Of a DNA stretch of 48,611 nucleotides, positions 2,232 to 19,303 are shown piece by piece. The translations under genes were made by a program, and so were the position numbers. Every line of letters begins with the position of its first letter. Positions within the stretch are counted from its first letter, which is position 1. Location: positions 1 to 48,611 of the forward strand of contig WGNM01000041.1 in the NCBI GenBank assembly GCA_016124575.1, read 5' to 3'. The notes under the pieces are model-generated. The model worked only from the letters and a program-made list of their open reading frames with translations, was not told the origin of the DNA and searched no databases. This DNA is from Cryomorphaceae bacterium (GTDB taxonomy: Bacteria > Bacteroidota > Bacteroidia > Flavobacteriales_D > Sanyastnellaceae).

Positions 2232-2924
2232 TTAGATGAATTTTATCTTTTCCATCAAGATAGAACGATGCGATCGAGAGACTGGAATGACATGACTATG
2301 AACGAGCACAGAATTCTCTTGAATGTCGCTTATTTGACTGCGGTTAATGATGAACGACCTATGGACACGTATGAAGCGATCATCGTCTTTTAGTTGTTCC
2401 TCTACGTTTTTCATCGTCGTATGAACAAGATGTTTTCCTTTCTCCATGCGGAAGATTACATAGTCACGCATGCTTTCCAAAACCAAAAGATCATCGAGCG
2501 GTATGCGAATGATTTTCCCTTCAGATTTTACAAAAATATTCTCTTCCTTCTCACTTTTCACCGTTGATTCAACAATGGCAGTGCGTGCCTTAAACCGATC
2601 TATAGCCTGAATAAACCTCGACAATGAGACGGGTTTCTTGAGGTAGTCGACAACATCGAGCTCAAATGCTTCAAGAGCGTATTTCTCATTCGAAGAAATT
2701 ATGATCACAGGTGGAAGCGACATGCCAATGCGTAGAAATTCTACCCCATTTATATCAGGCAATCCGATATCCAACAGTACGAGATCAAAAGTTTTTTGAG
2801 AAAGAATTTTGCGCGCGTCGACTACATTCTCAACGGCTTCAACCGTCATTCCTCCTACTTTGTCGCACAAAGCAAATAAAGCCTCTCGTGACAACTTTTC
2901 GTCTTCTATGATTAGGCAATTCAT
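2232..2924 (-). CDS. LytTR-family response regulator
   Basis: N-terminal receiver domain (residues 1-120) with the acidic pocket EDE at 7-9, phospho-acceptor D52 in LLDIGLP and the conserved KKP lysine after VVDYL. The C-terminal LytTR DNA-binding domain (about 128-230) carries the typical VHRSFIINRSQI segment. Length (230 aa) is normal for the family. Its ATG overlaps the stop of the upstream hybrid kinase by four bases (ATGA), so the two are translated together. I infer that it takes phosphate from that kinase, via the kinase's own receiver and HPt domains, and controls unknown promoters. Confidence 0.92.
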   Translation of the reverse strand: MNCLIIEDEKLSREALFALCDKVGGMTVEAVENVVDARKILSQKTFDLVLLDIGLPDINGVEFLRIGMSLPPVIIISSNEKYALEAFELDVVDYLKKPVSLSRFIQAIDRFKARTAIVESTVKSEKEENIFVKSEGKIIRIPLDDLLVLESMRDYVIFRMEKGKHLVHTTMKNVEEQLKDDDRFIRVHRSFIINRSQISDIQENSVLVHSHVIPVSRSHRSILMEKIKFI

Positions 2925-5329
2925 ATCTCAGAATTTAAATTTTTCTTCATCTTACTAATCGAATCTATAATCATATAATCAGATTCAACAATCCCAGCTA
3001 TAAGCTTGTTCAGTTCATTCAAACACTTTTCGCTCAGCTCTGAATCATGTAACTCCTTCTCTATCTCTTCCGACAACAATGCCAAATTCGATAGACCAAC
3101 CATGCGCAGCGGACTTCTTATTTTGTGCAGGTTAGCACAAATGCCACTTACTTCTTTCATAGAAATACACGTCTGCAAATCATTCAGGTATTCTCCAAAT
3201 TGACTCAAATAAATTTCGAACATGTCTAAGGCGTAATTGACATCACCCTCGTACAAATCTTCCAACATTTCAGAATCCAACCCACTATTGAAAAGTCCAA
3301 CCTTTTTAAACGAATTGTCTGAAAGAAAACTCTCCGTGAAGTACTTCGAAATCATGCGTTGCACATCTCCCGGTGCAAATGGTTTAGTCAGATAATTATC
3401 CATTCCCGCTCGGGCCGATAGCTGTACATCTTCATTAAACGCATAGGCAGATAAACCTACGATTGGAGTTTCACAGTTTGGATTATTGAAGTCTGACCTT
3501 ATTCTCATCGTTGCATCTAGTCCGTTCAATCGTGGCATTTGAACATCCATGAAAATCATATTGTAGTGCTGAGTCATGGTCATTTCAACCGCCTCAACCC
3601 CATCTCTAGCGCAATTATACCGAATTTTCAATTTTTCAAGCACCCTTGTCAGGTATTGGATGTTCATTTCATTGTCATCAACAACAAGTACCAGGCAATC
3701 GGCAGAATGGACACCCATTCCAATACCTAGATCGCGTGATACAGTTTCTGCTGATTCCATGGGAATCTTAACCGTAAATGTTGACCCTACTCCTAGCACG
3801 CTGCTCACAGCAATTGTACCGCCTAAAGATTCAACGATTCGTTTCGTAATGGTCAGTCCTAAACCTGTACCACCTTGTCTTTCACCAATTTGTTTGAACT
3901 TCTCAAAAACAAGATCAATTTTATCTTCAGAAATACCTAAACCAGTATCTGTGACCGAAATCTCAATGATCCACCGTTCACCAAATTGCTCAGCATTCAA
4001 GACCACACGCACAGAACCTTTGTCGGTAAACCTTATGGCATTGCTCAGCAGATTCGTGACGATTTGGTTTATAAGTAAAGCATCTGTCTGAAGTCGGTCA
4101 GGCATGGCCTTTTCAGCCTCAAACTCCAATCTCACATTCTCCTTCTCCAAACCATGACCGATCATTTGAATGCACGACGATATAAGTCTGTTCAAATCGA
4201 TGCTGTCTTGACGAACATCGAGCTGACCAGCTTCAATCTTCGAAAAGTCGAGCACATCGCTGATCAACCCTCGAAGCAAATTCGCTGAATAATAGATCGA
4301 GGTCATCAATTCAGCTTGTTCCTTGCTCAACTCACTTTCAGTAAGCAAATGCGACATTCCAATTATTGCATTGAGCGGAGTTCGTATCTCATGACTCATG
4401 CTAGCTAGGAATTCTTTTTCCGCTTGTTGCGCTTTTTCCGCACGCAGTCGCGCTTCCTTGAGATCACGCTCTGTTTTCCTAGTTTCGGTAACATCGAAGT
4501 GAATGCCTATCGAACCTACCACCTTACCTTGAGCATCGAAAATGGGCGCACCACTGATTATAACATCTCGAATTTCTCCAGACTTGCGCAACAACTTGGT
4601 TTCATACATTCCTGCTTCTCCACTGAAGCGCAGCTGTTCTTGGCGGTTCATTTCTTCCGAAAATGGCCCTGGCACCATCAATTGTTTCGCATTCTGTCCT
4701 TTAACAGCATCCAAATCGTAGCCAGTTAAAATCGTAAAACTGCGATTCATCCACAGAATGTTTCCAGCCAGATCAACTTCCATCAATCCAAGCTTCATGT
4801 GCTCAATTATACCTCGGTACTTTTCTTCACTGGCTTTTAAGAGATCCCTTAATTGGCGTTCAATTGTTATATCTCGTGCTGATACATAGACAAACTTCAA
4901 CACTCCAGAGTCAAAATCCATTCTTACATTCTGACCAATCCAATGCATTTCTCCATTCTTTGTTTTGATGAGAAACTCTCGATATGAAATGGGTGTTTGT
5001 AAGCCAATCTGCTTGAAATAGAATTTTTCAATTTCAACTTTTTGCTCTTCTCCGAGGAAATCAACAAAGTACTTTCCCAAAACTTCATTTTCAGCGAAAC
5101 CCGAAAATTCAAGAAAATAACGATTTACATATATTACGAAACCACGAGAATCCAACACATATATCATCTCTCTTACATTAGAAAGAATGTCGGATTCAGT
5201 AAACGAATGGGGATGAAAGACACCTGAAAGTTCAGCTTCGGCGGCTGCCAATTCAGAACGCAAACGTTCAACCCGTGAAATTTTTTCACGGACATCGACT
5301 GGAGATTTCGATGTATCCTTTGTTTGCAT
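2921..5329 (-). CDS. Hybrid sensor histidine kinase (PAS-PAS-HisKA-HATPase-REC-HPt)
   Basis: Numbered from ATG 5329: two PAS domains (about 45-160 and 167-285), a coiled coil, HisKA with H313 in SHEIRTPLN, HATPase with the N box (NLLSNAIRF), DTGLGIS and GGTGLGL, a receiver with D595 in MDVQMP, and a C-terminal HPt with H735 in LHKIRSP. No transmembrane segment is seen, so the sensor is probably cytoplasmic and senses through the PAS domains. All phosphorelay residues are present. ATG at 5329 (MQTKDTSK) is preferred; an in-frame TTG at 5350 would add seven residues. The gene is co-translated with the LytTR regulator downstream. Confidence 0.9.
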   Translation of the reverse strand: MQTKDTSKSPVDVREKISRVERLRSELAAAEAELSGVFHPHSFTESDILSNVREMIYVLDSRGFVIYVNRYFLEFSGFAENEVLGKYFVDFLGEEQKVEIEKFYFKQIGLQTPISYREFLIKTKNGEMHWIGQNVRMDFDSGVLKFVYVSARDITIERQLRDLLKASEEKYRGIIEHMKLGLMEVDLAGNILWMNRSFTILTGYDLDAVKGQNAKQLMVPGPFSEEMNRQEQLRFSGEAGMYETKLLRKSGEIRDVIISGAPIFDAQGKVVGSIGIHFDVTETRKTERDLKEARLRAEKAQQAEKEFLASMSHEIRTPLNAIIGMSHLLTESELSKEQAELMTSIYYSANLLRGLISDVLDFSKIEAGQLDVRQDSIDLNRLISSCIQMIGHGLEKENVRLEFEAEKAMPDRLQTDALLINQIVTNLLSNAIRFTDKGSVRVVLNAEQFGERWIIEISVTDTGLGISEDKIDLVFEKFKQIGERQGGTGLGLTITKRIVESLGGTIAVSSVLGVGSTFTVKIPMESAETVSRDLGIGMGVHSADCLVLVVDDNEMNIQYLTRVLEKLKIRYNCARDGVEAVEMTMTQHYNMIFMDVQMPRLNGLDATMRIRSDFNNPNCETPIVGLSAYAFNEDVQLSARAGMDNYLTKPFAPGDVQRMISKYFTESFLSDNSFKKVGLFNSGLDSEMLEDLYEGDVNYALDMFEIYLSQFGEYLNDLQTCISMKEVSGICANLHKIRSPLRMVGLSNLALLSEEIEKELHDSELSEKCLNELNKLIAGIVESDYMIIDSISKMKKNLNSEI

Positions 5330-5429
5330 GAGCTTACTTGTACTTAACAAATTCTTTTTACGTGGAATATCTGTGAAAGTTCCGTTTATAACTTATTCTG
5401 CTTCTTTTTCTCTTTTAAGATACTTGATC

Positions 5430-5442: not shown

Positions 5443-6771
5443 ATGTTCCGTTTATTTTCCATTTTCTCAGTTTTTATGTCTTTGCCAGTTTACTGCACCG
5501 CGCAGTACGACTGGGGAAAGCTACTTGAAAACACTGAAAATCAATGGTTAGTGACTGAGATAGATAAGTCTTTCAACCTACCTCAAAATCCTTGTCCACC
5601 TGATCTCGCAAAACTTATAGAACCATCCGAAATAGATTCAGTTCTTCATCCTTTTGCGCAAGACAAGAATTTGGAGTCCGAAAGTATCGAATCTTTGTTT
5701 AAAAACAACTGTTCCGGACTCAGAACCTTGCGATTGCTGAGTGATTTATACTTCCCTCTTTTTTCTCGCCAGCTGGATGCCAATGGATTGGATAAAGATT
5801 ATCGTTTTCTGCCTGTTGTGATTTCGGGTCTGAATTCAGAATTCGACAACAATGCCAGAGCCGGACTGTGGGGCATCGATATTCTAACTGCACGATCAAA
5901 CGGTATGCGCATCGACAGACAAATCGACGAGCGCAAAGCTGCCGATCCTTCAACACAACTAGCCGTAAAAATGATTAAGAAGTTCGAGAAAGAATTTCAA
6001 GGTGACCGCATCAAAGTAATCGTCGCCATGCTTCGCGGTCAGCGCTTTGCAAGCTCTTTCTCTTTCGCTAAAGCGGATGTTGAACTCCGCAGACAATTGT
6101 GCCTGCTGCATGTTTTAATCAGGATGTTCAACCATACAGAATCGAAACCCTCGTTGATGCTTTGGCTGCAAATGCTTCAAAACTATGAGGCCATTCCTTT
6201 GCGCAAAACTATGTCTTACAATGCTTTGGAAACTGTTCTCGACATCCCAGAAGGACTTTTAAGACATTTGAACCCTGCATTTCATGGTGATACCATTCCT
6301 GCGAATTTTAGAAAGGTCAGTTTCTTAATCCCAGCAAATAAAATCGAACAATTCGCCTTGTTAGAAGACTCAATAGCGAATTTCATTGTCCCAATTAAAG
6401 AGACCCCAGCACAACCCGAACCCCAAACATTTGCATACCATACAGTAAAATCAGGTGATGTGCTGGGATTGATAGCACAGAAATACGGCGTAAGTGTTGC
6501 CCAGATTAGGCGGTTGAACAATTTGAAGAGCGACAACATCCGCATCGGACAACGACTAAAGATTTCTGCAGACAGCACCGATGTGGTTTCAAAACCCAAA
6601 CCCTCAACTTCAAACAATTCAACTCAAGTCTACACAGTGCGGTCAGGCGATTCACTGTGGTTAATTGCCAAGAAATTCCCTGGCGTTAGCATTGAAGATA
6701 TACAACGAGAGAATGGCATTGGCGATGGCATACAGCCAGGACAAAAACTCACAATACCAGCAGCGAAATGA
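5443..6771 (+). CDS. Secreted LysM protein with degenerate lytic transglycosylase-like domain
   Basis: Signal peptide (residues 1-20, ending CTAQ). The middle region (about 100-210) resembles MltD-type lytic transglycosylases: RFLPVVISGLNSEF...AGLWGI matches the family's LPxxESxFxPxAxS...GLWQ. At the place of the catalytic glutamate in ESxF this protein has N131 (NSEF), so it may bind but not cut peptidoglycan. Two LysM domains follow (332-375 and 397-440, each starting YxxxxGD or YTVRSGD), which bind glycan strands. It is the first gene of a four-gene run and overlaps the next by ATGA, tying it to the acyltransferase genes. Periplasmic or outer-envelope location is inferred. Confidence 0.85.
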   Translation: MFRLFSIFSVFMSLPVYCTAQYDWGKLLENTENQWLVTEIDKSFNLPQNPCPPDLAKLIEPSEIDSVLHPFAQDKNLESESIESLFKNNCSGLRTLRLLSDLYFPLFSRQLDANGLDKDYRFLPVVISGLNSEFDNNARAGLWGIDILTARSNGMRIDRQIDERKAADPSTQLAVKMIKKFEKEFQGDRIKVIVAMLRGQRFASSFSFAKADVELRRQLCLLHVLIRMFNHTESKPSLMLWLQMLQNYEAIPLRKTMSYNALETVLDIPEGLLRHLNPAFHGDTIPANFRKVSFLIPANKIEQFALLEDSIANFIVPIKETPAQPEPQTFAYHTVKSGDVLGLIAQKYGVSVAQIRRLNNLKSDNIRIGQRLKISADSTDVVSKPKPSTSNNSTQVYTVRSGDSLWLIAKKFPGVSIEDIQRENGIGDGIQPGQKLTIPAAK

Positions 6772-8252
6772 ACACTGAAATCACACCATGGCGGGTGACT
6801 ATTTCACTGGTGGTTGTCGGTGTTTTGTGCACCGCGCTCACACAACTAATACCCAAAGAAGGATTTCAAATTGCTGGTGTCGAAGTCAATTTTTACCGTC
6901 CATTTTTTCAACCTCGCGACACCACAAAACAAGGCATTGCTGATGCGGAGGCATTTCTAGAAGGTTACAATTCTATTCTCGCAGAAGATTCTTTATCTAC
7001 AAACGAGAAAACCTTTGATGAAGAAAAGGCCGATGACGAATTGTTAGAGGAGCGAAAGAAACTTTTGAGAATTCAGCGTGGTGAATCGGGCATTAAAAAT
7101 CTCGATTTGTTCTTCATCCGCGCCGAGAGCGCGAAAGAGAAAGGAACCCGATTGCGTGTTTTACATTACGGCGACTCGCAAATTGAAGGCGACCGCATCA
7201 GTCGCAATCTGCGCGAAAAAATGCAGCAGCTCTGGGGCGGCAATGGTCCGGGCATGGTTACTCCAGTTGAAGTCGTGCCCTCTTCAGCCATAACATCTTC
7301 TGCATCAGAAGGTTGGAAGCGTAGCACCATATACGGTCAAAAAGACAAAACCATGCTTCATAACCGCTACGGCGTGCTGGGAAGTATGGCTACCTATACC
7401 CCCGAAGTTGGAAAGCAATACCGACTGACATTTTCACCATCCAACATGTCATTTAGCAGAAATAGGCAATTCTCGAATGCTAGCCTCTATTTCAGCGTCC
7501 CCGACTCAGCCGTCACCCTGTCTGTTTTTCACAACGGCGTTGAAATCGACAAACGTGTTTTGCCCGATAGCAGCTTTTTTAAGAAAATCTCATGGAGTTT
7601 GCCAAGCAGCACAGAAAGTTTCGAACTTGTATTTGAAGGAGGACCAGCAGAGTGCTATGCGCTTGCGCTTGATGGTGGCGCTGGCATTCAACTAGACAAC
7701 ATTGGGATGCGCGGCAGTTCGGGAACAATCTTCAAAAAAATCAATCGAGAACAAATAAAGAAGCAGCTCACCGATTTAAATCCAGGATTGATATTCCTGC
7801 AGTATGGGGGAAACACTGTGCCCTACGTCAACGACACCCTTGCAGCCGAAAATTATGGTGATTGGATGAAATCGCAGATTTTGTATTTGCAGAGTATTCT
7901 ACCCGAGGCAGCCTTTATCCTTATCGGTCCGTCTGACATGGCATACAAAGACGGAGATGAATTTATCACCTATCCCTATTTGGTACCTATTCGGGATGCG
8001 TTGAAGAAGACCGCATTGGAAACAGGATGTGGCTTTTGGGATATTTATGAAGCCATGGGAGGTAAGAATTCGATGGCCGCTTGGGTAGCTGCTGATCCGC
8101 CATTGGCCGCTGCCGATTATGTCCACTTCTCACCAAAAGGGGCCACAAAAGTGGCAGAACTATTGTTTAAAGCCCTTTCAGATGAGTACGAAAACTACCG
8201 CAGTAGGAGTGCTCAGCCAGACACAATCAACACTGAAAAAAAGGCACTATGA
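6768..8252 (+). CDS. Membrane-anchored SGNH/GDSL hydrolase-like protein
   Basis: One N-terminal transmembrane anchor (about residues 8-28), then a periplasmic SGNH fold. Block I is HYGDSQIEGDR with nucleophile S137. Block III is represented by LQYGGN. Block V is DYVHFSPKG with D450 and H453, so the catalytic triad is intact. The N-terminal linker (50-105) is charged and may be extended. Such proteins paired with an MBOAT protein move or remove O-acyl groups on extracytoplasmic glycans (the PatB and AlgX type of role). It overlaps both neighbours by four bases. Whether it acts as transferase or esterase cannot be told from sequence. Confidence 0.82.
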   Translation: MNTEITPWRVTISLVVVGVLCTALTQLIPKEGFQIAGVEVNFYRPFFQPRDTTKQGIADAEAFLEGYNSILAEDSLSTNEKTFDEEKADDELLEERKKLLRIQRGESGIKNLDLFFIRAESAKEKGTRLRVLHYGDSQIEGDRISRNLREKMQQLWGGNGPGMVTPVEVVPSSAITSSASEGWKRSTIYGQKDKTMLHNRYGVLGSMATYTPEVGKQYRLTFSPSNMSFSRNRQFSNASLYFSVPDSAVTLSVFHNGVEIDKRVLPDSSFFKKISWSLPSSTESFELVFEGGPAECYALALDGGAGIQLDNIGMRGSSGTIFKKINREQIKKQLTDLNPGLIFLQYGGNTVPYVNDTLAAENYGDWMKSQILYLQSILPEAAFILIGPSDMAYKDGDEFITYPYLVPIRDALKKTALETGCGFWDIYEAMGGKNSMAAWVAADPPLAAADYVHFSPKGATKVAELLFKALSDEYENYRSRSAQPDTINTEKKAL

Positions 8253-9526
8253 AAGAATTGATCTGCGCATTGCTCCTACTCTTTCCGGCCTTATCGATCA
8301 ACGAAATCGCAGTTTTAAAACCAACGGTAGACAAAGAGCCATACCCCTTTATTGATTACAGCCGCAACCACATCGACTTCCCAAGTCAAGTAAAATTCGA
8401 AGGCGTGTATGAACTTTTAGACTCAGCATTTGCAGGAACACGAAGCTTCAACATCCTTCATTTCGGAGGTTCACACGTTCAGGCGGGATCTATCGGAGTT
8501 CGGATGCGCCAGCTTTTAGAGCAGCTTTCTTGGGGAATCACGAATGAAAGAGGTTGGCTTTTCCCCTATCGAGTAGGAAATAGCAACAGCACACAAAACA
8601 CCCGCTCTGAAGCAACAGGCGAATGGACCCTTCAGCGCTGTGCCAGCAACAAAGACCATGCTGCATGGGGAATGGGAGGCATAGTTGTTTCAACAGCTAC
8701 AGACAGTGCCACATTAAAAATTTGGGCTTGGAAGCCCGATTCCTCCAATTACAGAGGAAATGAAGTAAGACTATTTTACAACATGCAGATAGCATCGTAC
8801 ACCCCGACCTGGGTTGGTGCTGAAAATCCAGTTTCAACACGCATCGATTCAACTTTGGGCTGCATCATACATACCTTCGAGCAAGAGGTAGACACCCTTC
8901 ATTGGCAGTTTGTGCAGACCGACAGCGTGCAAATTGGCATTGAAGTTCAAGGCTGCCAGCTTCTGAGCCAAGAGCACGGAATCACATACAACGAAATTGG
9001 AGTGAACGGAGCCAGCACCGCCAGTTACCTCAGGTGCGAGCAAATGGAGATGCAGTTGCCCAGCATTAAGCCAGACCTGGTTATTTTCGGAATCGGCATT
9101 AACGATGCACATGTGCCGCAAGACGACTTTTCATCTGTCGCCTTTACAAATCGATACGACAGCTTGATAGCGGTGCTTCGAACCAGCAATCCCGAAGTGA
9201 GATTTCTATTTCTCACCAACAACGATTCGTATTACAAGAAAAGGCACCCCAACCAGAACGCCTCATCAGTGCGCACATGCATGTATTCGCTAGCAGAGAA
9301 ACACGGAGCTGCTGTTTGGGATCTGTTTGAAATCATGGGCGGTTTAGGTTCGATAAAATCATGGGAAGATGAAGGATTGGCGAAATCCGATTACATTCAT
9401 CTCACCCGACAAGGGTATTATTTGCAAGCAGAGCTCTTGTTTCAAGCATTCATGCAATCGTATGGAGATCATTTGCAAGAGAAGCATGGGATGCTTCAAA
9501 CCACTAAACCTACAATTCCGAATTGA
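8249..9526 (+). CDS. Second SGNH hydrolase-like protein of the operon
   Basis: Begins with a hydrophobic signal-like segment (residues 1-18). Block I reads HFGGSHVQAG with S75, so the usual Asp of GDS is Gly, while the serine is kept. GIGINDAH is the block III GxND motif, and block V is DYIHLTRQG (D381, H384). It shares the DxxH ending and the layout of the preceding gene but little else, so the pair is either an old duplication or two separate recruitments. ATGA overlaps on both sides place it in the operon. Likely acts in the periplasm on the same glycan as its neighbour. Confidence 0.8.
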   Translation: MKELICALLLLFPALSINEIAVLKPTVDKEPYPFIDYSRNHIDFPSQVKFEGVYELLDSAFAGTRSFNILHFGGSHVQAGSIGVRMRQLLEQLSWGITNERGWLFPYRVGNSNSTQNTRSEATGEWTLQRCASNKDHAAWGMGGIVVSTATDSATLKIWAWKPDSSNYRGNEVRLFYNMQIASYTPTWVGAENPVSTRIDSTLGCIIHTFEQEVDTLHWQFVQTDSVQIGIEVQGCQLLSQEHGITYNEIGVNGASTASYLRCEQMEMQLPSIKPDLVIFGIGINDAHVPQDDFSSVAFTNRYDSLIAVLRTSNPEVRFLFLTNNDSYYKKRHPNQNASSVRTCMYSLAEKHGAAVWDLFEIMGGLGSIKSWEDEGLAKSDYIHLTRQGYYLQAELLFQAFMQSYGDHLQEKHGMLQTTKPTIPN

Positions 9527-11232
9527 AGATGGAAATCTTGAAAGAGTATTTTCTGTACAACCCCAATTCCCCTTTGATCTTCACAGAGCAGATTTTCTGG
9601 GTGTTTTTCGGAATTGTAATGCTTGTATTCAGTCTGATCTATAAGAACAAAGCCTGGCGAAACGGATTTTTATTCTTGGCAAGTATATTTTTCTATTACA
9701 AGACATCAGGATTTTTTTTCAGCATCCTACTTTTCTCCACCATCACCGATTTCGGAATAGGAATCGCAATATATAACGCAACGACTCAGATCGCGAAAAA
9801 ATGGTGGCTCGCCTTGAGTATATCCTTGAATTTGGGAGTCCTCATATACTTTAAATACGCCTACTTCTTTGCCGACTCATTCAATCGAATGATAGGCAGC
9901 CAATATCATCCAATCAATCATTTTGCGGATATCTCGAACAAGTTGTTGGGGACAGGATTTCGAGTTGATCAGATCTTGTTGCCTGTTGGCATTTCATTCT
10001 TCACGTTTCAAACCATGTCGTATGCTATCGACATCTACCGCGGACACTTGAAGCCTGTACGAAGCATTTTCGATTTTGGATTTTACGTCTCTTTCTTCCC
10101 TCAACTAGTCGCAGGACCCATTGTTCGCGCATCCGATTTCATACCTCAGCTTTTTGAGCCATACCGATTGACCAAGCAGCAATTTGGCATAGCGCTTTTT
10201 TGGATAATGAATGGCTTGATCAAGAAAGTCCTCTTAGCCGATTATATCGCCCTCAACTTCGTTGACAGAGTCTTCGGCAATCCCGGTTCATACACAGGCT
10301 TTGAAAATTTGATGGCGTTGTATGGCTATTCATTGCAGGTGTACGCGGATTTTTCAGGCTATACGGATATGGCGATTGGCATAGCGCTTCTGATGGGATT
10401 TCGATTGCCATTGAATTTCAATTCACCCTACAAAGCCGATAGTTGTGCGAATTTTTGGAAACGCTGGCACATCTCCCTTTCCACATGGTTGAAAGATTAC
10501 TTGTATATCCCCTTGGGCGGCAACAGAGGAGGCACCTTGTTTACATATATAGCGCTCGGGTTCATAGCCTTTTTCGTTTATATGATCAGCGGATCATGGG
10601 CAGTACTAGCAAGTATGGCTTTGTTTGCTGCGTTAGCGATACTCACAGGTATGTTTATACCACCAGCAAAACGATGGTTCACCACCAACATCAACTTATT
10701 GATCACCATGTTATTTGGAGGTTTGTGGCATGGTGCAAGTTGGAACTTCGTATTGTGGGGAGGCTTAAACGGCTTGGGCATCGTAGTTTACAAACTCTGG
10801 AGAAAGATTAGTCCGTGGGAAGACAAAACCAAATGGTACAATCGGTTGATTGCCATCTTCATAACCTTCAACTTCATCTCATTCACACGCATTTGGTTTA
10901 GGAGTAGCAGTGCCAATTCATGGGACTCTATGAAAGCCAGTCACGACATCAGTTCAGAGTGGAGCAATGCAACCACCATGCTGAATCAGTTGGTAACCAA
11001 TATGGATTTTAGCGTAGCTCTGGATGTCATCACAGGGTTTGCACCTGTATTTGGCGTCATGGTTTTGGGTTTTATCATCCATTGGTTGCCTGAGAGTTGG
11101 AAGAATCGGTATCGCTATTTCTTCGCCAACCAAGGAATTGTTGTCCATGTATTGGTTGCTGTTTTGGGTGTGTTCTTGGTATATCAGGTGATGTCGGCTG
11201 ATGCGCAACCCTTTATTTATTTCCAGTTTTAG
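9523..11232 (+). CDS. MBOAT-family O-acyltransferase (AlgI/PatA-like)
   Basis: A polytopic membrane protein of 569 aa with the MBOAT signature: KRWHISLSTWLKDYLYIPLG, with H316, and GLWHGASWNFVLWG, with the candidate catalytic H403. In AlgI, PatA and DltB this family carries an acyl group, usually acetyl, across the inner membrane to a partner protein. It is longer than typical AlgI (about 520 aa) because of extra membrane segments at the C-terminus. It is the last gene of the operon and is followed by two hairpins. The two SGNH proteins upstream are the obvious partners. The substrate (peptidoglycan or an exopolysaccharide) is inferred, with LysM favouring peptidoglycan. Confidence 0.92.
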   Translation: MKMEILKEYFLYNPNSPLIFTEQIFWVFFGIVMLVFSLIYKNKAWRNGFLFLASIFFYYKTSGFFFSILLFSTITDFGIGIAIYNATTQIAKKWWLALSISLNLGVLIYFKYAYFFADSFNRMIGSQYHPINHFADISNKLLGTGFRVDQILLPVGISFFTFQTMSYAIDIYRGHLKPVRSIFDFGFYVSFFPQLVAGPIVRASDFIPQLFEPYRLTKQQFGIALFWIMNGLIKKVLLADYIALNFVDRVFGNPGSYTGFENLMALYGYSLQVYADFSGYTDMAIGIALLMGFRLPLNFNSPYKADSCANFWKRWHISLSTWLKDYLYIPLGGNRGGTLFTYIALGFIAFFVYMISGSWAVLASMALFAALAILTGMFIPPAKRWFTTNINLLITMLFGGLWHGASWNFVLWGGLNGLGIVVYKLWRKISPWEDKTKWYNRLIAIFITFNFISFTRIWFRSSSANSWDSMKASHDISSEWSNATTMLNQLVTNMDFSVALDVITGFAPVFGVMVLGFIIHWLPESWKNRYRYFFANQGIVVHVLVAVLGVFLVYQVMSADAQPFIYFQF

Positions 11233-14459: not shown

Positions 14460-14561
14460 AATCTTGTTTTTTTGCTCTGGGCACAACGCAAATATCTTGC
14501 CTTCTTACTTTCGCAGTCTTTTTGTTCTGCAATATTTTTTTTTCATTCGTATCTTTCCATC

Positions 14562-17500
14562 ATGCGTCTGCTTTCTTCTTTAATTCTGCTATCGCTGTCA
14601 CTGACAAGTTTTGCTCAGGTGAAATATCCTGTGATTGAAAATCGTGGACAATGGCCAGATCATGTGGTTGCACAGGTTGAAATCGGGGGCGGACAGCTTT
14701 ACATTGAAAACCAAGGACTTACATGGCACTTCATGGATTTGTCTGCCGTGGAAGCGGTGCATGGTACCGGAATCCAACCGTATGATTTGGAAGATGATGT
14801 CCGTATTCGCGGACATGTATACAAAGTTGATTTCATCGGTGCAAATCCTTCTCCTGGCGTCGGATATGAAGATGAACAACAAACAAAATTCAATTATTTC
14901 AGAGGCAATAACCCCGATAACTGGCAAGGAAATGTCCCCGCTCACGGTGCGTGCTCTCTTCTAAACATATACCCCGGTATCGATATCAAATTCTACAACC
15001 ATGATTTGATCCTCAAATACGATGTCGTTTTAAAGCCTGCGGCAGATGTCAATCTAATTGCATTCAAATACAGAGGCGCCGAAAATGTTAGCTTGGTCGA
15101 TGGCAGAATACTTATTAAAACAAGTATCAATACGATTGTGGAACAAGCTCCCATCGCTTGGCAAATCAAAAACGGTGAAAACATAAGGGTGGCATGTGAA
15201 TACACTCTCGAAAACGACATCCTAGGCTTCAAATTTCCAAAAGGCATCGACCCCAAACTCGAAACGGTAATCGACCCTGTACTTATCTTTAGTACCTATT
15301 CTGGGTCCACAGCCGATAATTTCGGCTACACCGCTACCTACGACGATGAGGGCTACCTCTATTCAGGCAGCTCTGCTTTCGGAAATGGGTATCCGACAAA
15401 TGTGGGTTCTTATCAGCAAACGTGGGCAGGTGGTAACGGACAAGGTTCATTGGTTGGCACAGACATAGCGATTACGAAGTACGATATTACTGGAACCTTC
15501 CGAGTATATTCAACCTACCTTGGTGGTTCAAACGATGATCTGCCCCATTCACTTATTGTAAACGCAGCAGGTGAGCTTGTTGTAATGGGAACTACCAGCT
15601 CGCCCGACTTCCCTTCCACCGCAGGTGCTTACTCTTCTGCTTTTTTCGGGGGGACGGCGTTCGCGCCTTCTGGAGTGGGTACCAACTACGTTAATGGCTC
15701 CGACATTGTTGTAACAAAGTTCACAGCCGATGGTGCAGCCCTTGCTGCTTCTACTTTCCTCGGTGGCAGCGGAAATGATGGCACGAACACAGCAGCACAA
15801 TTGAAATTTAATTACGCCGATGAGTTCAGAGGCGAAGTCGAAATAGATGCCCTCGGGAATATTTATGTCGCTTCATGCACATTTTCAAACAACTTCCCTG
15901 TAGTGGGTGGTTTGCAGTCGGCCAATGCTGGCGGACTTGACGGATGCATCGCTCGTTTCAGCGCCGACCTCTCGGAACTTCAATTTTCAACCTATTTGGG
16001 AGGTTCAGGAAATGATGCGGCATACTCTTTAGCGGTTGCACCAAATGGAAATTATTATGTTTCTGGGGGCACTACGAGCATTAACTTCCCTACCACAACC
16101 AACGCATATCAAGCAAACTACAATGGTGGAACCGCGGATGGCTTCCTTGTCCACATCGATGCCGCTGGCAGCAACATCCTTGATGCCACGTATTTCGGTT
16201 CTGGTGCGTATGACCAAGTGTATTTTGTTGAAGTCGATGGGGAGGGGAATCCGCATCTGTACGGACAAACGATGGCTTCTGGCAGTGCAATGGTTTTTAA
16301 CGCTGCTTACAGTGTGCCAAACAGTGGTATGCTCGTGGCTCGCATGATTCCTGATCTGAGCACTCTTGAATGGTCTACCGTTTTTGGAACCGGCGAGGGT
16401 GAACCAAACATGTCGCCAACGGCCTTTCTTGTTGATGTCTGCGGTAAGGTATACCTCTCTGGCTGGGGTGGTTCTACCAACACATCATCAAACCCCAACA
16501 CCGACAATCTATTCGGTATGCCAACAACGCCAGATGCATATCAAACGACCACCAACGGTAGCGATTTTTACCTCATGGTTCTCGAAGATGATGCGAGTGC
16601 ATTGGTCTATGCTAGCTTTTTCGGGGGCGGCACAAGTGCTGAACACGTAGATGGTGGCACCAGTCGTTTCAATCGCAAAGGGGTCATTTACCAGTCTGTT
16701 TGCGCCGGGTGTGGAAGCAACGACGACTTCCCGATCTTTCCGCCAAATGCGGTTTCGCCAACGAACAATAGCTCAAATTGCAACAATGGGGTATTTAAAT
16801 TCGACTTCCAGTTGCCAATTACTGTGGCTGATTTCGTAGTGCCTCCGGTGGCATGCATCAATCAGCCTTTGCAATTTCAAAACTCGTCGAACCTTGCCTC
16901 TTCGTTTAGCTGGAATTTTGGCGACAACACGACATCTACGCTCACAAATCCTGTCCATTTCTACAGTGAACCGGGCGTTTATGCCATTACGTTGTATGCA
17001 ATCAATCCTGGAACATGTAACGCGCAAGATTCGTTGGTGAAGTTCATCGAAATCTTCGAACCCAATGTGCAATCGCTCGGTGATTTGAATATCTGCATCG
17101 GCGAACTTATTGACCTTGGTCCTGAAAACCCTATTCCAGGAGCTGTTTACAATTGGGAACCAGCAGAATTGGTTAGCAACCCAAACACTGCTAATACAAC
17201 GAGCCAACCGCTGGTAGATACCGATTTCGTTCTCACCGTTCAAAGTGGTGGTGCTTGTGTTGACACCCTTTTGCAATCGGTATTTGTAACAATCATTGAA
17301 TTGGATGTGTCAGACGATCTTGTGCTTTGCGATGGTCCTGCAATCGCTAACTTTCAAGCTACGTCTCCACAAACAAATGCAGCTTTTACATGGTCATCTC
17401 AGTCTGATTTTTCAGATCAACTAAACGATGGTCCGAACGATGGCGACATTTCTATCGAGGTAAACTCTCCTACTACTTTCTACGTCCTCGCCTCACTCGG

Positions 17501-18305
17501 CGGATGTGAAACAACCAGTGAAGTTCATGTTTCGTTTATTGCCGAAGCTCTTGCCATTACCGGAAATCCGCTGGTCTGCGCAGGTGATACAATTGTGCTA
17601 AGCGTGTTGACTGAAATCCCTGGCTTCGCTCTTGATTGGAGTCCAGACAACCTCATCATTAGCGGCGACGGCACAGAAAGCGTAACGGTTGTCGTTCCCG
17701 ATGAGACTGTATTTACTGTTTTTGCAGACGACAACGCCGGATGTACTTTTTCAACCAGCTTAACCATAGATGTAAGTGGTTTGGCATTGTCTGACATAGA
17801 AGCCTCTGCCGAACCGAGTTTGATAAGAGATGGCGATGAAGCAACGCTAACGGTAGTTCCATTGGGTTATGATTACGTGTGGACACCTGATGAAACGCTA
17901 ACTGACCCTACGGGGCAAACAACCATTGCTTCACCAGAGGTTACAACAACTTACTACGTAGAGATCATTGATGGTGAATGTGTTTACCTCGACTCTGTTC
18001 AAGTGCGCGTTTATGATTTTGTTTGTGGTCCGCCCATGATCTACGTTCCAAATGCCTTCACACCCAATGGCGACAGCAACAACGATAAGGTGTATGTCCA
18101 TGGAAATTTCGTCACCAGTCTGAATTTCGTGATCTACAATCGCTGGGGTGAAAAAGTTTTCGAAACAAATTCTCTCAACGTGGGATGGGACGGAACATAT
18201 GAAGGGATGCCTGTAGACCCGGCTGTTTTCGTTTATTACCTAGAAGCAATTTGTGAAGACGGACAGCAATATTTCGAGAAAGGCAACATCACCGTAATTC
18301 GATGA
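14562..18305 (+). CDS. Large T9SS type B cargo: SBBP repeats, PKD, gliding-type CTD
   Basis: Signal peptide (MRLLSSLILLSLSLTSFAQ). Residues about 20-250 form the N-terminal domain often found with SBBP repeats (ENRGQWPDHV...). Several SBBP beta-propeller repeats follow (STYLGGSGND-type, about 255-730). A PKD domain (SWNFGDNTTSTL, FYSEPGVYAITLYA) and Ig-like or cell-adhesion repeats come next. The C-terminal 90 residues are a type B sorting domain (YVPNAFTPNGDSNNDKVYV, IYNRWGEKVFE, GWDGTYEG). Type IX secretion exports it to the surface. ATG 14562 is used because it starts the signal peptide. It overlaps the PorP/SprF gene by ATGA, the usual partner arrangement. Confidence 0.93.
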   Translation: MRLLSSLILLSLSLTSFAQVKYPVIENRGQWPDHVVAQVEIGGGQLYIENQGLTWHFMDLSAVEAVHGTGIQPYDLEDDVRIRGHVYKVDFIGANPSPGVGYEDEQQTKFNYFRGNNPDNWQGNVPAHGACSLLNIYPGIDIKFYNHDLILKYDVVLKPAADVNLIAFKYRGAENVSLVDGRILIKTSINTIVEQAPIAWQIKNGENIRVACEYTLENDILGFKFPKGIDPKLETVIDPVLIFSTYSGSTADNFGYTATYDDEGYLYSGSSAFGNGYPTNVGSYQQTWAGGNGQGSLVGTDIAITKYDITGTFRVYSTYLGGSNDDLPHSLIVNAAGELVVMGTTSSPDFPSTAGAYSSAFFGGTAFAPSGVGTNYVNGSDIVVTKFTADGAALAASTFLGGSGNDGTNTAAQLKFNYADEFRGEVEIDALGNIYVASCTFSNNFPVVGGLQSANAGGLDGCIARFSADLSELQFSTYLGGSGNDAAYSLAVAPNGNYYVSGGTTSINFPTTTNAYQANYNGGTADGFLVHIDAAGSNILDATYFGSGAYDQVYFVEVDGEGNPHLYGQTMASGSAMVFNAAYSVPNSGMLVARMIPDLSTLEWSTVFGTGEGEPNMSPTAFLVDVCGKVYLSGWGGSTNTSSNPNTDNLFGMPTTPDAYQTTTNGSDFYLMVLEDDASALVYASFFGGGTSAEHVDGGTSRFNRKGVIYQSVCAGCGSNDDFPIFPPNAVSPTNNSSNCNNGVFKFDFQLPITVADFVVPPVACINQPLQFQNSSNLASSFSWNFGDNTTSTLTNPVHFYSEPGVYAITLYAINPGTCNAQDSLVKFIEIFEPNVQSLGDLNICIGELIDLGPENPIPGAVYNWEPAELVSNPNTANTTSQPLVDTDFVLTVQSGGACVDTLLQSVFVTIIELDVSDDLVLCDGPAIANFQATSPQTNAAFTWSSQSDFSDQLNDGPNDGDISIEVNSPTTFYVLASLGGCETTSEVHVSFIAEALAITGNPLVCAGDTIVLSVLTEIPGFALDWSPDNLIISGDGTESVTVVVPDETVFTVFADDNAGCTFSTSLTIDVSGLALSDIEASAEPSLIRDGDEATLTVVPLGYDYVWTPDETLTDPTGQTTIASPEVTTTYYVEIIDGECVYLDSVQVRVYDFVCGPPMIYVPNAFTPNGDSNNDKVYVHGNFVTSLNFVIYNRWGEKVFETNSLNVGWDGTYEGMPVDPAVFVYYLEAICEDGQQYFEKGNITVIR

Positions 18306-19303
18306 AAAAGCTCGCGATTTTCATATTGCTTTCTCCACTTTGGGTTCTTGGGCAAGACATCCATTTCAGTCAATTTGATGTGGCACCTCTGGTTTATAAC
18401 CCTGCTTTCATAGGCAATTTCGACGGCGACATCCGATTTATCGGAAATCAACGCACCCAATGGAGATCGGTGACAGTTCCGTATTCTACGATTGGGGTAA
18501 GTGGTGAGATGAGGGAAATAAAAGACATCCCGCGAGTGAGCGGTGCTGCCTCTATTTATCAAGACAGAGCAGGTGACTCTCGGCTGAACACACTACAATT
18601 CAATCTTGCGGGATCTTATGAAATCAAACGCAGTGCAGATTCATTGCACCGCTTCACCGCGGGATTTCAAACGGGCTTTACGCATCGCAACATCGATTAC
18701 AGCGAGTTGAGGTACGACAATCAGTGGAACGGCGTGAACTACGACCCGGGCATCAATTCGGGAGAAAGTTACAGTCGTGATGCGCGCACAAATTTGAATT
18801 TGAACATCGGTGCTGGTTGGCATTACTTTAAAGACCGCAGGCATCGTGCAGAAGCAGGTTTGGCTTTGCACCACCTGCAAAAGCCAAGACAGAGTTTTTT
18901 CGATGATCCTTCCATTGGCCTAGACCGTCGCTTTTCTATGGTAGCCTCGGGAGTTACACAATTGAATTACGATTGGGATTTGATGGGTTCGCTGCTCCTT
19001 TCTCGTCAAGGCAAATTCATGGAATTCAATACCGGTATGGGTGTTCGTTACATCTTGATGGACAAAAATCAATTTTTCAGGACATTATTCGCAGGGTTTT
19101 ATTTTAGGACAAAAGACGCAGGATATGTCCTTGCAGGAATGGATTACGACGCTTGGAGATTTGGAATCTCATACGATTTCAACCTTTCAGATCTAAAACC
19201 AGCAAGTGCGGGTAGAGGGGGCTTTGAATTGAGTGTGGTATATGTACTTCGCAAATTCAAACCTGTTCTTAAAACACGTAAAATCTGTCCCGACTACCTT
19301 TAA
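18302..19303 (+). CDS. PorP/SprF-family T9SS membrane protein
   Basis: Signal peptide followed by QDIHFSQFDVAPLVYNPAFIG, the family hallmark (QxxxFSQYxxxPxxxNPAxxG). The rest alternates like an outer-membrane beta-barrel of about 310 residues and ends with a strand plus a short tail. Members are paired with type B T9SS cargo and are thought to anchor or help export that cargo. The four-base overlap with the cargo gene fits this exactly. 333 aa is a normal length. It is one of many paralogues expected in such a genome and need not be the essential PorP. Confidence 0.92.
   Translation: MKKLAIFILLSPLWVLGQDIHFSQFDVAPLVYNPAFIGNFDGDIRFIGNQRTQWRSVTVPYSTIGVSGEMREIKDIPRVSGAASIYQDRAGDSRLNTLQFNLAGSYEIKRSADSLHRFTAGFQTGFTHRNIDYSELRYDNQWNGVNYDPGINSGESYSRDARTNLNLNIGAGWHYFKDRRHRAEAGLALHHLQKPRQSFFDDPSIGLDRRFSMVASGVTQLNYDWDLMGSLLLSRQGKFMEFNTGMGVRYILMDKNQFFRTLFAGFYFRTKDAGYVLAGMDYDAWRFGISYDFNLSDLKPASAGRGGFELSVVYVLRKFKPVLKTRKICPDYL

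Follow-up and report, generated by a model that had tools for sequence, protein, structure and literature searches.

The stretch of DNA considered here, 48,611 nucleotides from a Cryomorphaceae bacterium (contig WGNM01000041.1 of assembly GCA_016124575.1; hereafter the window), contains an operon of four consecutive plus-strand genes within positions 5443-11232 (Table 1). In order, the genes encode a LysM protein with a lytic transglycosylase fold (LT), two SGNH proteins (SG1 and SG2), and an MBOAT O-acyltransferase. An earlier note on this DNA had described LysM, SGNH, SGNH, and MBOAT genes in this order as an operon for envelope O-acylation, with peptidoglycan indicated by the LysM protein. 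Both parts of that description are borne out: the Pfam matches agree with it (LysM twice in LT, GDSL/SGNH in SG1 and in SG2, MBOAT in the fourth protein; the SG1 score of 28.4 bits is below the cut-off of 32.9), and the two SGNH proteins are Ape1-like. The core of the operon, SG1-SG2-MBOAT, is already known as the peptidoglycan O-acetylation (OAP) cluster. What is new is its first member, a degenerate MltD-type transglycosylase without the catalytic glutamate. Three ATGA overlaps had been counted between the genes. Those joining LT to SG1 and SG1 to SG2 are present, and the third junction instead reads TTGA; the ATG at 9529 lies 2 bases past the stop codon of SG2.

The SGNH-SGNH-MBOAT core

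Both SGNH proteins resemble peptidoglycan O-acetylesterases. In profile searches of the PDB, SG1 matches 4k3u (E 1.1e-36), 8gkd (1.3e-17), and 8gld (2.3e-17), and SG2 matches the same three entries (2.3e-36, 1e-32, and 7.9e-32, respectively). All three are titled peptidoglycan O-acetylesterase; 8gkd and 8gld are Ape1 of Campylobacter jejuni, and 4k3u is presumably Ape1 of Neisseria meningitidis. For SG1, a structural model (pLDDT 91.6) gives the same picture: the top five Foldseek rows are all chains of 8gld, 8gkd, or 4k3u (E 5.9e-25 to 7.9e-23, TM 0.78-0.84 on target length), and the next match is at 2.8e-9. For SG2, the likeness to Ape1 comes from the sequence profile. The two proteins share 25% identity, and each keeps its catalytic residues (Ser137/Asn349/Asp450/His453 in SG1; Ser75/Asn285/Asp381/His384 in SG2, which reads GGSH where GDSH is expected). 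These Ser, Asn, Asp, and His residues are invariant in alignments of 16 and 49 rows for SG1 and of 16 rows for SG2.

Relatives of the operon were collected through SG1. Of 150 order genomes, 96 have a match to it at E <= 0.001, and of 395 phylum genomes, 69 have one at E <= 1e-20. Loci were picked as good matches to SG1, not at random: they come from 40 of the 96 matching order genomes and 51 of the 69 matching phylum genomes, together with 80 of 586 loci in a named set. Removal of 7 near-duplicates from 172 loci leaves 165 distinct loci; frames were started at the first ATG, GTG, or TTG, and some spacings are approximate. By simple patterns, the Ser, Asn, and Asp/His motifs are found in 160, 148, and 155 of the 165 distinct loci for SG1, and in 121, 121, and 118 of 121 for SG2.

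The MBOAT protein has a conserved histidine (His401, in GLWHG) and ends in FIYFQF, which contains Tyr564. PatA of the PatA/PatB system is likewise an MBOAT protein with an invariant histidine and a C-terminal FXYXXF shuttle motif; PatA acetylates the tyrosine of this motif, and PatB can take the acetyl group from acetyl-tyrosine (PMC12148441). Both features are common among relatives, with WHG in 131 of 131 MBOATs and F.Y..F within the last 12 residues in 118 of the 128 frames with a complete end (duplicates included). Among the 10 misses, 3 end in tyrosine for the last phenylalanine, 4 have proline for the first, and 3 have no motif; two of the last group are a single frame-split gene that appears twice. 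The only solved relatives found are DltB-type (E 6e-24 against DltB structures), and the sole NCBIfam match is DltB, at 152.6 bits, below the cut-off of 375. The sequence features that mark an OAP member, namely the conserved histidine of the MBOAT, its FXYXXF tail, and adjoining Ape-type SGNH genes in order, are all present. A second MBOAT of the genome (G000:C4:69559-72131, also L232:6560-9132) has the C-terminus FIYFRF, and its gene overlaps an ALGX-type gene.

Table 1. Genes and junctions of the operon, and related arrangements in other genomes
Feature	Position	Strand	Description
Pseudo-lytic transglycosylase (LT)	5443..6771	+	N-terminal signal peptide by reading; MltD-type domain; two LysM
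SGNH protein 1 (SG1), ape1b position	6768..8252	+	Ape1-like; N-terminal helix 7-27 read as membrane anchor
SGNH protein 2 (SG2), ape1c position	8249..9526	+	Ape1-like; profile match to 4k3u
MBOAT O-acyltransferase, PatA-like	9529..11232	+	Pfam MBOAT E 6e-24; alternative start TTG 9523
ATGA overlap, genes 1/2	6768..6771	+	Sequence
ATGA overlap, genes 2/3	8249..8252	+	Sequence
TTGA, genes 3/4 junction	9523..9526	+	Sequence; TTG at 9523 overlaps TGA at 9524
LysM-in-SG2 loci	L106:7660-9075, L107, L108, L197-L204		Natural LysM/Ape1-like SGNH fusion, no LT gene adjoining
SG1 beside TPR-PD40-OmpA	L047:7945-9897, L048:4544-6496, L049:7944-9962, L054:7963-9927, L069:4509-6455		

A transglycosylase fold without its catalytic glutamate

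The earlier note had called the first protein lytic transglycosylase-like, which holds for its fold and not for its active site. The AlphaFold2 model (pLDDT 89.7, from a 39-row alignment) has Pseudomonas aeruginosa MltD (8rhe/8rhf) as its best structural match (Foldseek E 8e-14), with a VIA-align Z of 19.6 and an rmsd of 4.3 over 241 residues at 18% identity. As in MltD, the fold is combined with two C-terminal LysM domains, here at about residues 333-374 and 395-440 (Pfam E 1e-32). However, the Pfam SLT score is 20.5 bits, just below the cut-off of 21.3, and the catalytic motif is degenerate: Ile127 occupies the position of the catalytic glutamate, and other active-site motifs of MltD are lost. 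At the positions where the window LT has VISGL and MLRGQR, VESAL and YNAGPG are found in the genome's own MltD paralogue, whose glutamate is intact. The reading of the first protein as an active transglycosylase was rejected because of the missing glutamate together with the other lost active-site residues. The protein had also been cast as a targeting module; it does point to peptidoglycan, but it is more than that, a degenerate MltD.

How widespread is the loss? Among LT homologues beside SG1 (frames of 300 residues or fewer were excluded before counting), the glutamate is present in 0 of 29 in a first set and in 14 of 79 in a larger one. After near-duplicate loci are removed, 14 of 74 keep it, and 60 of 74 distinct LTs are without it. 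The 14 active copies all come from the named collection, with titles that include metagenome-assembled genomes of Bacteroidales, Draconibacterium, and Chlorobi, and all of them lie at most 355 bp upstream of SG1. Two reach 92-94 bits for Pfam SLT, compared with 20.5 for the window LT.

Two quick tree searches, with five dead rows on long branches, bear on how often the glutamate changed. One tree contains the 74 LTs and six MltD rows (6 of 20 loci from an MltD search passed a motif filter), with the glutamate column removed and the root placed by hand on MltD. In this tree, all 60 dead rows fall into a single clade (SH-aLRT 99) that excludes the 14 active rows. This gives one change, with no resolution of the branching order among the dead clade and both groups of active rows. 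The other, a concatenated SG1+SG2+MBOAT tree, needs two changes, because L194, which has serine at the position, falls among the active rows. With one change on one tree and two on the other, repeated loss of the glutamate on many occasions was rejected.

The dead copies are maintained by selection. The ratio of nonsynonymous to synonymous substitution rates (dN/dS) is well under 1 in all seven dead-copy pairs (0.066, 0.257, 0.11, 0.192, 0.096, 0.068, and 0.295, of which the third and sixth are weak, with dS above 2), and the idea of a decaying gene was rejected on these values. The ratio for dead LT is above that for MBOAT in five pairs, all that could be computed, and comparison with the SGNH genes is mixed; dS is saturated for all genes of an eighth, active pair (L133/L129) and for the other three genes of L042/L044. 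In the dead clade, the GxW and D162/R164 positions are kept, and many residues that are fixed in the active rows and in MltD are scattered. Leu, Ala, Thr, Ile, and Val are among the residues found in place of the glutamate, and YNxG is lost too. Mean pairwise identity within the dead clade is 0.14-0.29 for three LT regions, as against 0.46/0.42 for the two LysM domains. The corresponding values are 0.47-0.73 and 0.60/0.56 for the active rows, and 0.27-0.59 and 0.42/0.41 for the MltD rows. This pattern fits a protein that has been freed from catalysis and still needs its fold and its glycan-binding modules.

The OAP cluster and the distribution of its first gene

The earlier note took the combination of genes to be an undescribed system. 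For the core, this cannot be upheld. In the OAP cluster of Weadge et al. 2005 (PMC1199599), ape1b comes first (except in Zymomonas), then ape1c, then pat; that is, two Ape1-type SGNH genes are followed by an MBOAT gene, the order and families of SG1-SG2-MBOAT. Holders of the cluster include B. thetaiotaomicron, B. fragilis, and P. gingivalis (PMC1199599). Peptidoglycan O-acetylation is put at 69.4% in B. fragilis and 27.0% in B. thetaiotaomicron (PMC1199599, Table 1 of that paper), and O-acetylation of MurNAc at 56-66% in three Bacteroides species (PMC11382707). The Bacteroides clusters have a cation-efflux gene upstream, and the term LysM is absent from the text of PMC1199599, whereas in the window a translationally coupled dead MltD leads. 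Furthermore, ape1c is said to lack the segment after motif I (PMC1199599), whereas SG2 of the window has a long stretch there. Hence, the equation of SG2 with ape1c rests on order and family, with the known genes compared by description. Within the open-licence literature, among the matches listed and as far as titles and the starts of abstracts go, there is no description of a dead transglycosylase in an acetylation operon, or of the four-gene operon in Bacteroidota; the available part of PMC10434189 has nothing on the operon.

A survey of this gene order had been suggested in the earlier note, which named a lack of conservation in any relative as the outcome that would tell against its proposal. 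The order is conserved. All four genes occur together in 63 of the 165 distinct loci (the window itself, 24 of 39 in the order, 1 of 51 in the phylum, and 37 of 74 in the named set). SG2 adjoins SG1 in 121 loci, and an MBOAT is present in 136; LT is directly upstream of SG1 in 75, with the -4 spacing of the ATGA type in 29 of these, window counted. The SG1-SG2-MBOAT core stands without an adjacent LT in 46 loci. Altogether, the upstream sequence is long enough in 162 distinct loci, and 87 of these lack an LT beside SG1; once 21 distant loci (L085-L105) are set aside, LT is present in 75 of 141. These 87 loci include all 11 from one genus (f17/g61) with a LysM domain inside SG2. LT is therefore a common but dispensable member of the operon.

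In the fetched stretches of that genus, an LT gene beside the core was not found in any of the 11 loci. In all 10 SG2 proteins tested (of the 11), Pfam places a LysM domain, with a score above its cut-off, near residues 203-247, after the catalytic serine and ahead of the remainder of the SGNH domain. A simple LysM pattern run over 135 SG2 frames matched 8 frames, all of this genus; it missed 3 of the 11, so other cases of the fusion can have been missed. As judged from sequence, the LysM-SG2 fusion points the same way as the LysM domains of LT in the operon.

Other arrangements also occur. For example, SG1 is found without SG2, LT, or MBOAT in five genomes, 1-36 bp downstream of the gene for a TPR-PD40-OmpA protein (Table 1); OmpA domains bind peptidoglycan. 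Where SG1 has moved away from SG2, no LT or MBOAT is present in the stretch around SG2 in 3 of 3 genomes (G020, G068, where the stretch reaches 1.8 kb past SG2, and G071). Among the distant SG1 relatives (L085-L105), 16 of 21 have, just upstream, a gene whose product is about 200-280 amino acids long and in L086 reads as a small SGNH protein, and 15 of 21 have an MBOAT in the stretch; these loci are probably a different acylation system.

A proposed acetylation machine and its alternatives

What is the function of the operon? The reading that we favor, and consider probable, is that it is a Bacteroidota OAP cluster with a built-in pseudo-lytic transglycosylase that docks or activates the SGNH enzymes. 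Ape1-like SGNH proteins with their catalytic residues, together with the PatA-type FIYFQF tail, make peptidoglycan the likely substrate. There is a precedent for such a partnership. LtgA and Ape1 of Neisseria associate in a complex of roughly 100 kDa, and LtgA raises the activity of Ape1 on p-nitrophenyl acetate, a compound that LtgA itself does not use as a substrate (PMC7083599). Thus, a transglycosylase can help Ape1 without cutting. As in that pair, the window operon puts a transglycosylase with an Ape1-like SGNH protein. In contrast to LT, which is MltD-type, lacks the glutamate, and shares an operon with its putative partner, LtgA is active and has Slt enzymes as its closest relatives (PMC7083599). 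That the cutting residue was lost and yet the gene was retained in the operon suggests use as a docking or activating partner, and the operon may represent a permanent form of the LtgA-Ape1 pairing in which the ability to cut has disappeared.

Under this proposal, the MBOAT protein would take acetyl from acetyl-CoA, load it onto Tyr564 of the FIYFQF tail, and present it on the periplasmic side. One Ape1-like SGNH protein would accept the acetyl group on its active-site serine and put it on MurNAc; removal of acetyl would fall to the other SGNH protein, or to the same one. The first protein, which would no longer cleave glycan, would be held on glycan strands by its LysM domains, and its transglycosylase-shaped body would dock the SGNH enzymes, activate them, or both, as LtgA does for Ape1.

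The operon sharpens the question of which protein does PatB's job: there are two Ape1-type proteins in the cluster and no clear PatB in the genome. Unlike in the PatA/PatB system, a search of the window genome at E 0.001 gave no match to DUF459, the PatB family, and Ape1-like proteins stand in PatB's place; therefore, one of them is probably the transferase. If SG1 and SG2 divide the labor, SG2 would be the weak favorite for the transferase-like member, since it is on SG2 that relatives show weak DUF459 matches; the indication is faint but points in one direction. DUF459 matches occur in 17 of 150 genomes of the order, and 14 of the 17 places are on SG2 (12 on SG2 frames and two, in G021 and G028, at the SG2 place beside SG1); that in G134 is on an SG1-like frame, and the remaining two, in G055 and G116, are unassigned. 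Matches above the cut-off are found in 5 of the 150 genomes (27.2-34.2 bits), all five on the SG2 gene or place beside SG1. G065:C2:139644-140027 is an example of a weak match in the order. Against SG2 as the transferase, the window SG2 itself scores only 14.7 bits, the cut-off being 27.2; SG1 has no match. The idea that the phylum lacks PatB fails: besides the 17 order genomes, DUF459 matches are present in the control genome Bacteroides ihuae and in 4 of 8 named genomes. In some of the latter, the matching proteins (243-260 residues) are encoded apart from the operon, and relatives may have a separate PatB elsewhere in their genomes. A broader version of the proposal is that many Bacteroidota have a four-protein O-acetylation machine, with an Ape1-type protein (likely SG2) in PatB's role and an LT that lost its glutamate once, at an early stage of operon evolution, as a dedicated subunit without catalytic activity that presents glycan and activates the enzymes. 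We put this version forward only tentatively.

Several observations weigh against docking and activation within an OAP cluster. MBOAT-SGNH systems serve other polymers too, the PDB matches of SG2 (taken up to E 1) include no PatB structure, and LT is missing from beside SG1 in the 87 loci described above. Of the 14 loci in which LT is active, only 7 contain the full set of four genes. Among the others, the stretch of L160 ends after LT-SG1-SG2 and that of L161 soon after SG1; L169, L192, and L196 have LT-SG1-MBOAT with no SG2 beside SG1; and L173 and L175 have no SG2 or MBOAT within reach of SG1. The LysM domains of the dead clade are less conserved than those of the active rows; the dead rows are more diverse, so this contrast is soft, and the within-row contrast outweighs the between-row one. 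Finally, the dead clade shows wide replacement of LT active-site residues, so glycan binding by the LT domain may be gone.

Could the first protein act on its own? The dead LT might be a LysM tether or glycan-end sensor that places or regulates the enzymes, or competes with genuine transglycosylases for strand ends, with no contact to the SGNH proteins. Within the dead clade, conservation is highest in the LysM domains; the genome retains an intact MltD; and in genus f17/g61 LysM alone sits inside SG2 with no LT found in the stretch, as if it could stand in for the whole protein. However, LysM alone would suffice for such a role, and the LT fold is kept under purifying selection (GxW, D162/R164, Z 19.6), so we regard a pure tether or sensor as unlikely, although it is the most serious of the alternatives. 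Continued cleavage with another acid residue would be in keeping with the retained fold and with the glutamate of the 14 active homologues beside SG1, but the variety of residues that replace the glutamate and the loss of YNxG and other active-site residues make it highly improbable.

The substrate is the other point at which readings diverge. The earlier note had offered, as its alternative, an operon that O-acylates an exopolysaccharide; this, or action on another envelope glycan, would make the LysM protein an accessory. MBOAT-SGNH pairs do act on alginate and other polymers (PMC12148441), and the affinities of the window MBOAT to DltB, in NCBIfam below the cut-off and among solved structures, are compatible with such a role. 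On the other hand, both SGNH proteins are Ape1-like, Pfam gives no ALGX match for any of the four proteins (E up to 1), and the first gene has a peptidoglycan-enzyme fold with LysM domains. A Pfam search found no glycosyltransferase among the four genes. Moreover, another MBOAT of the genome is encoded next to a Pfam ALGX protein, so that the window operon is less likely to serve an exopolysaccharide. We thus consider this alternative improbable.

Why would a dead transglycosylase in an OAP cluster matter? O-acetylation blocks lytic transglycosylases and lysozyme (PMC1199599, PMC11382707), and a transglycosylase within the acetylation machine would therefore physically link two opposing processes. 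Active copies lie outside the dead clade and dead copies within it, and the same SGNH gene is the neighbor in either case; these intermediates make the switch testable.

The surroundings of the operon include possible regulators. A LytTR-type response regulator and a PAS hybrid sensor kinase, so labeled by reading, are encoded on the minus strand (2232-2924 and 2921-5350), divergent from the operon and 92 bases from it. Farther downstream, positions 14472-18305 encode what we take to be a large repeat protein whose C-terminus is of the gliding type; the gene after it (18302-19303) is presumably PorP/SprF-like.

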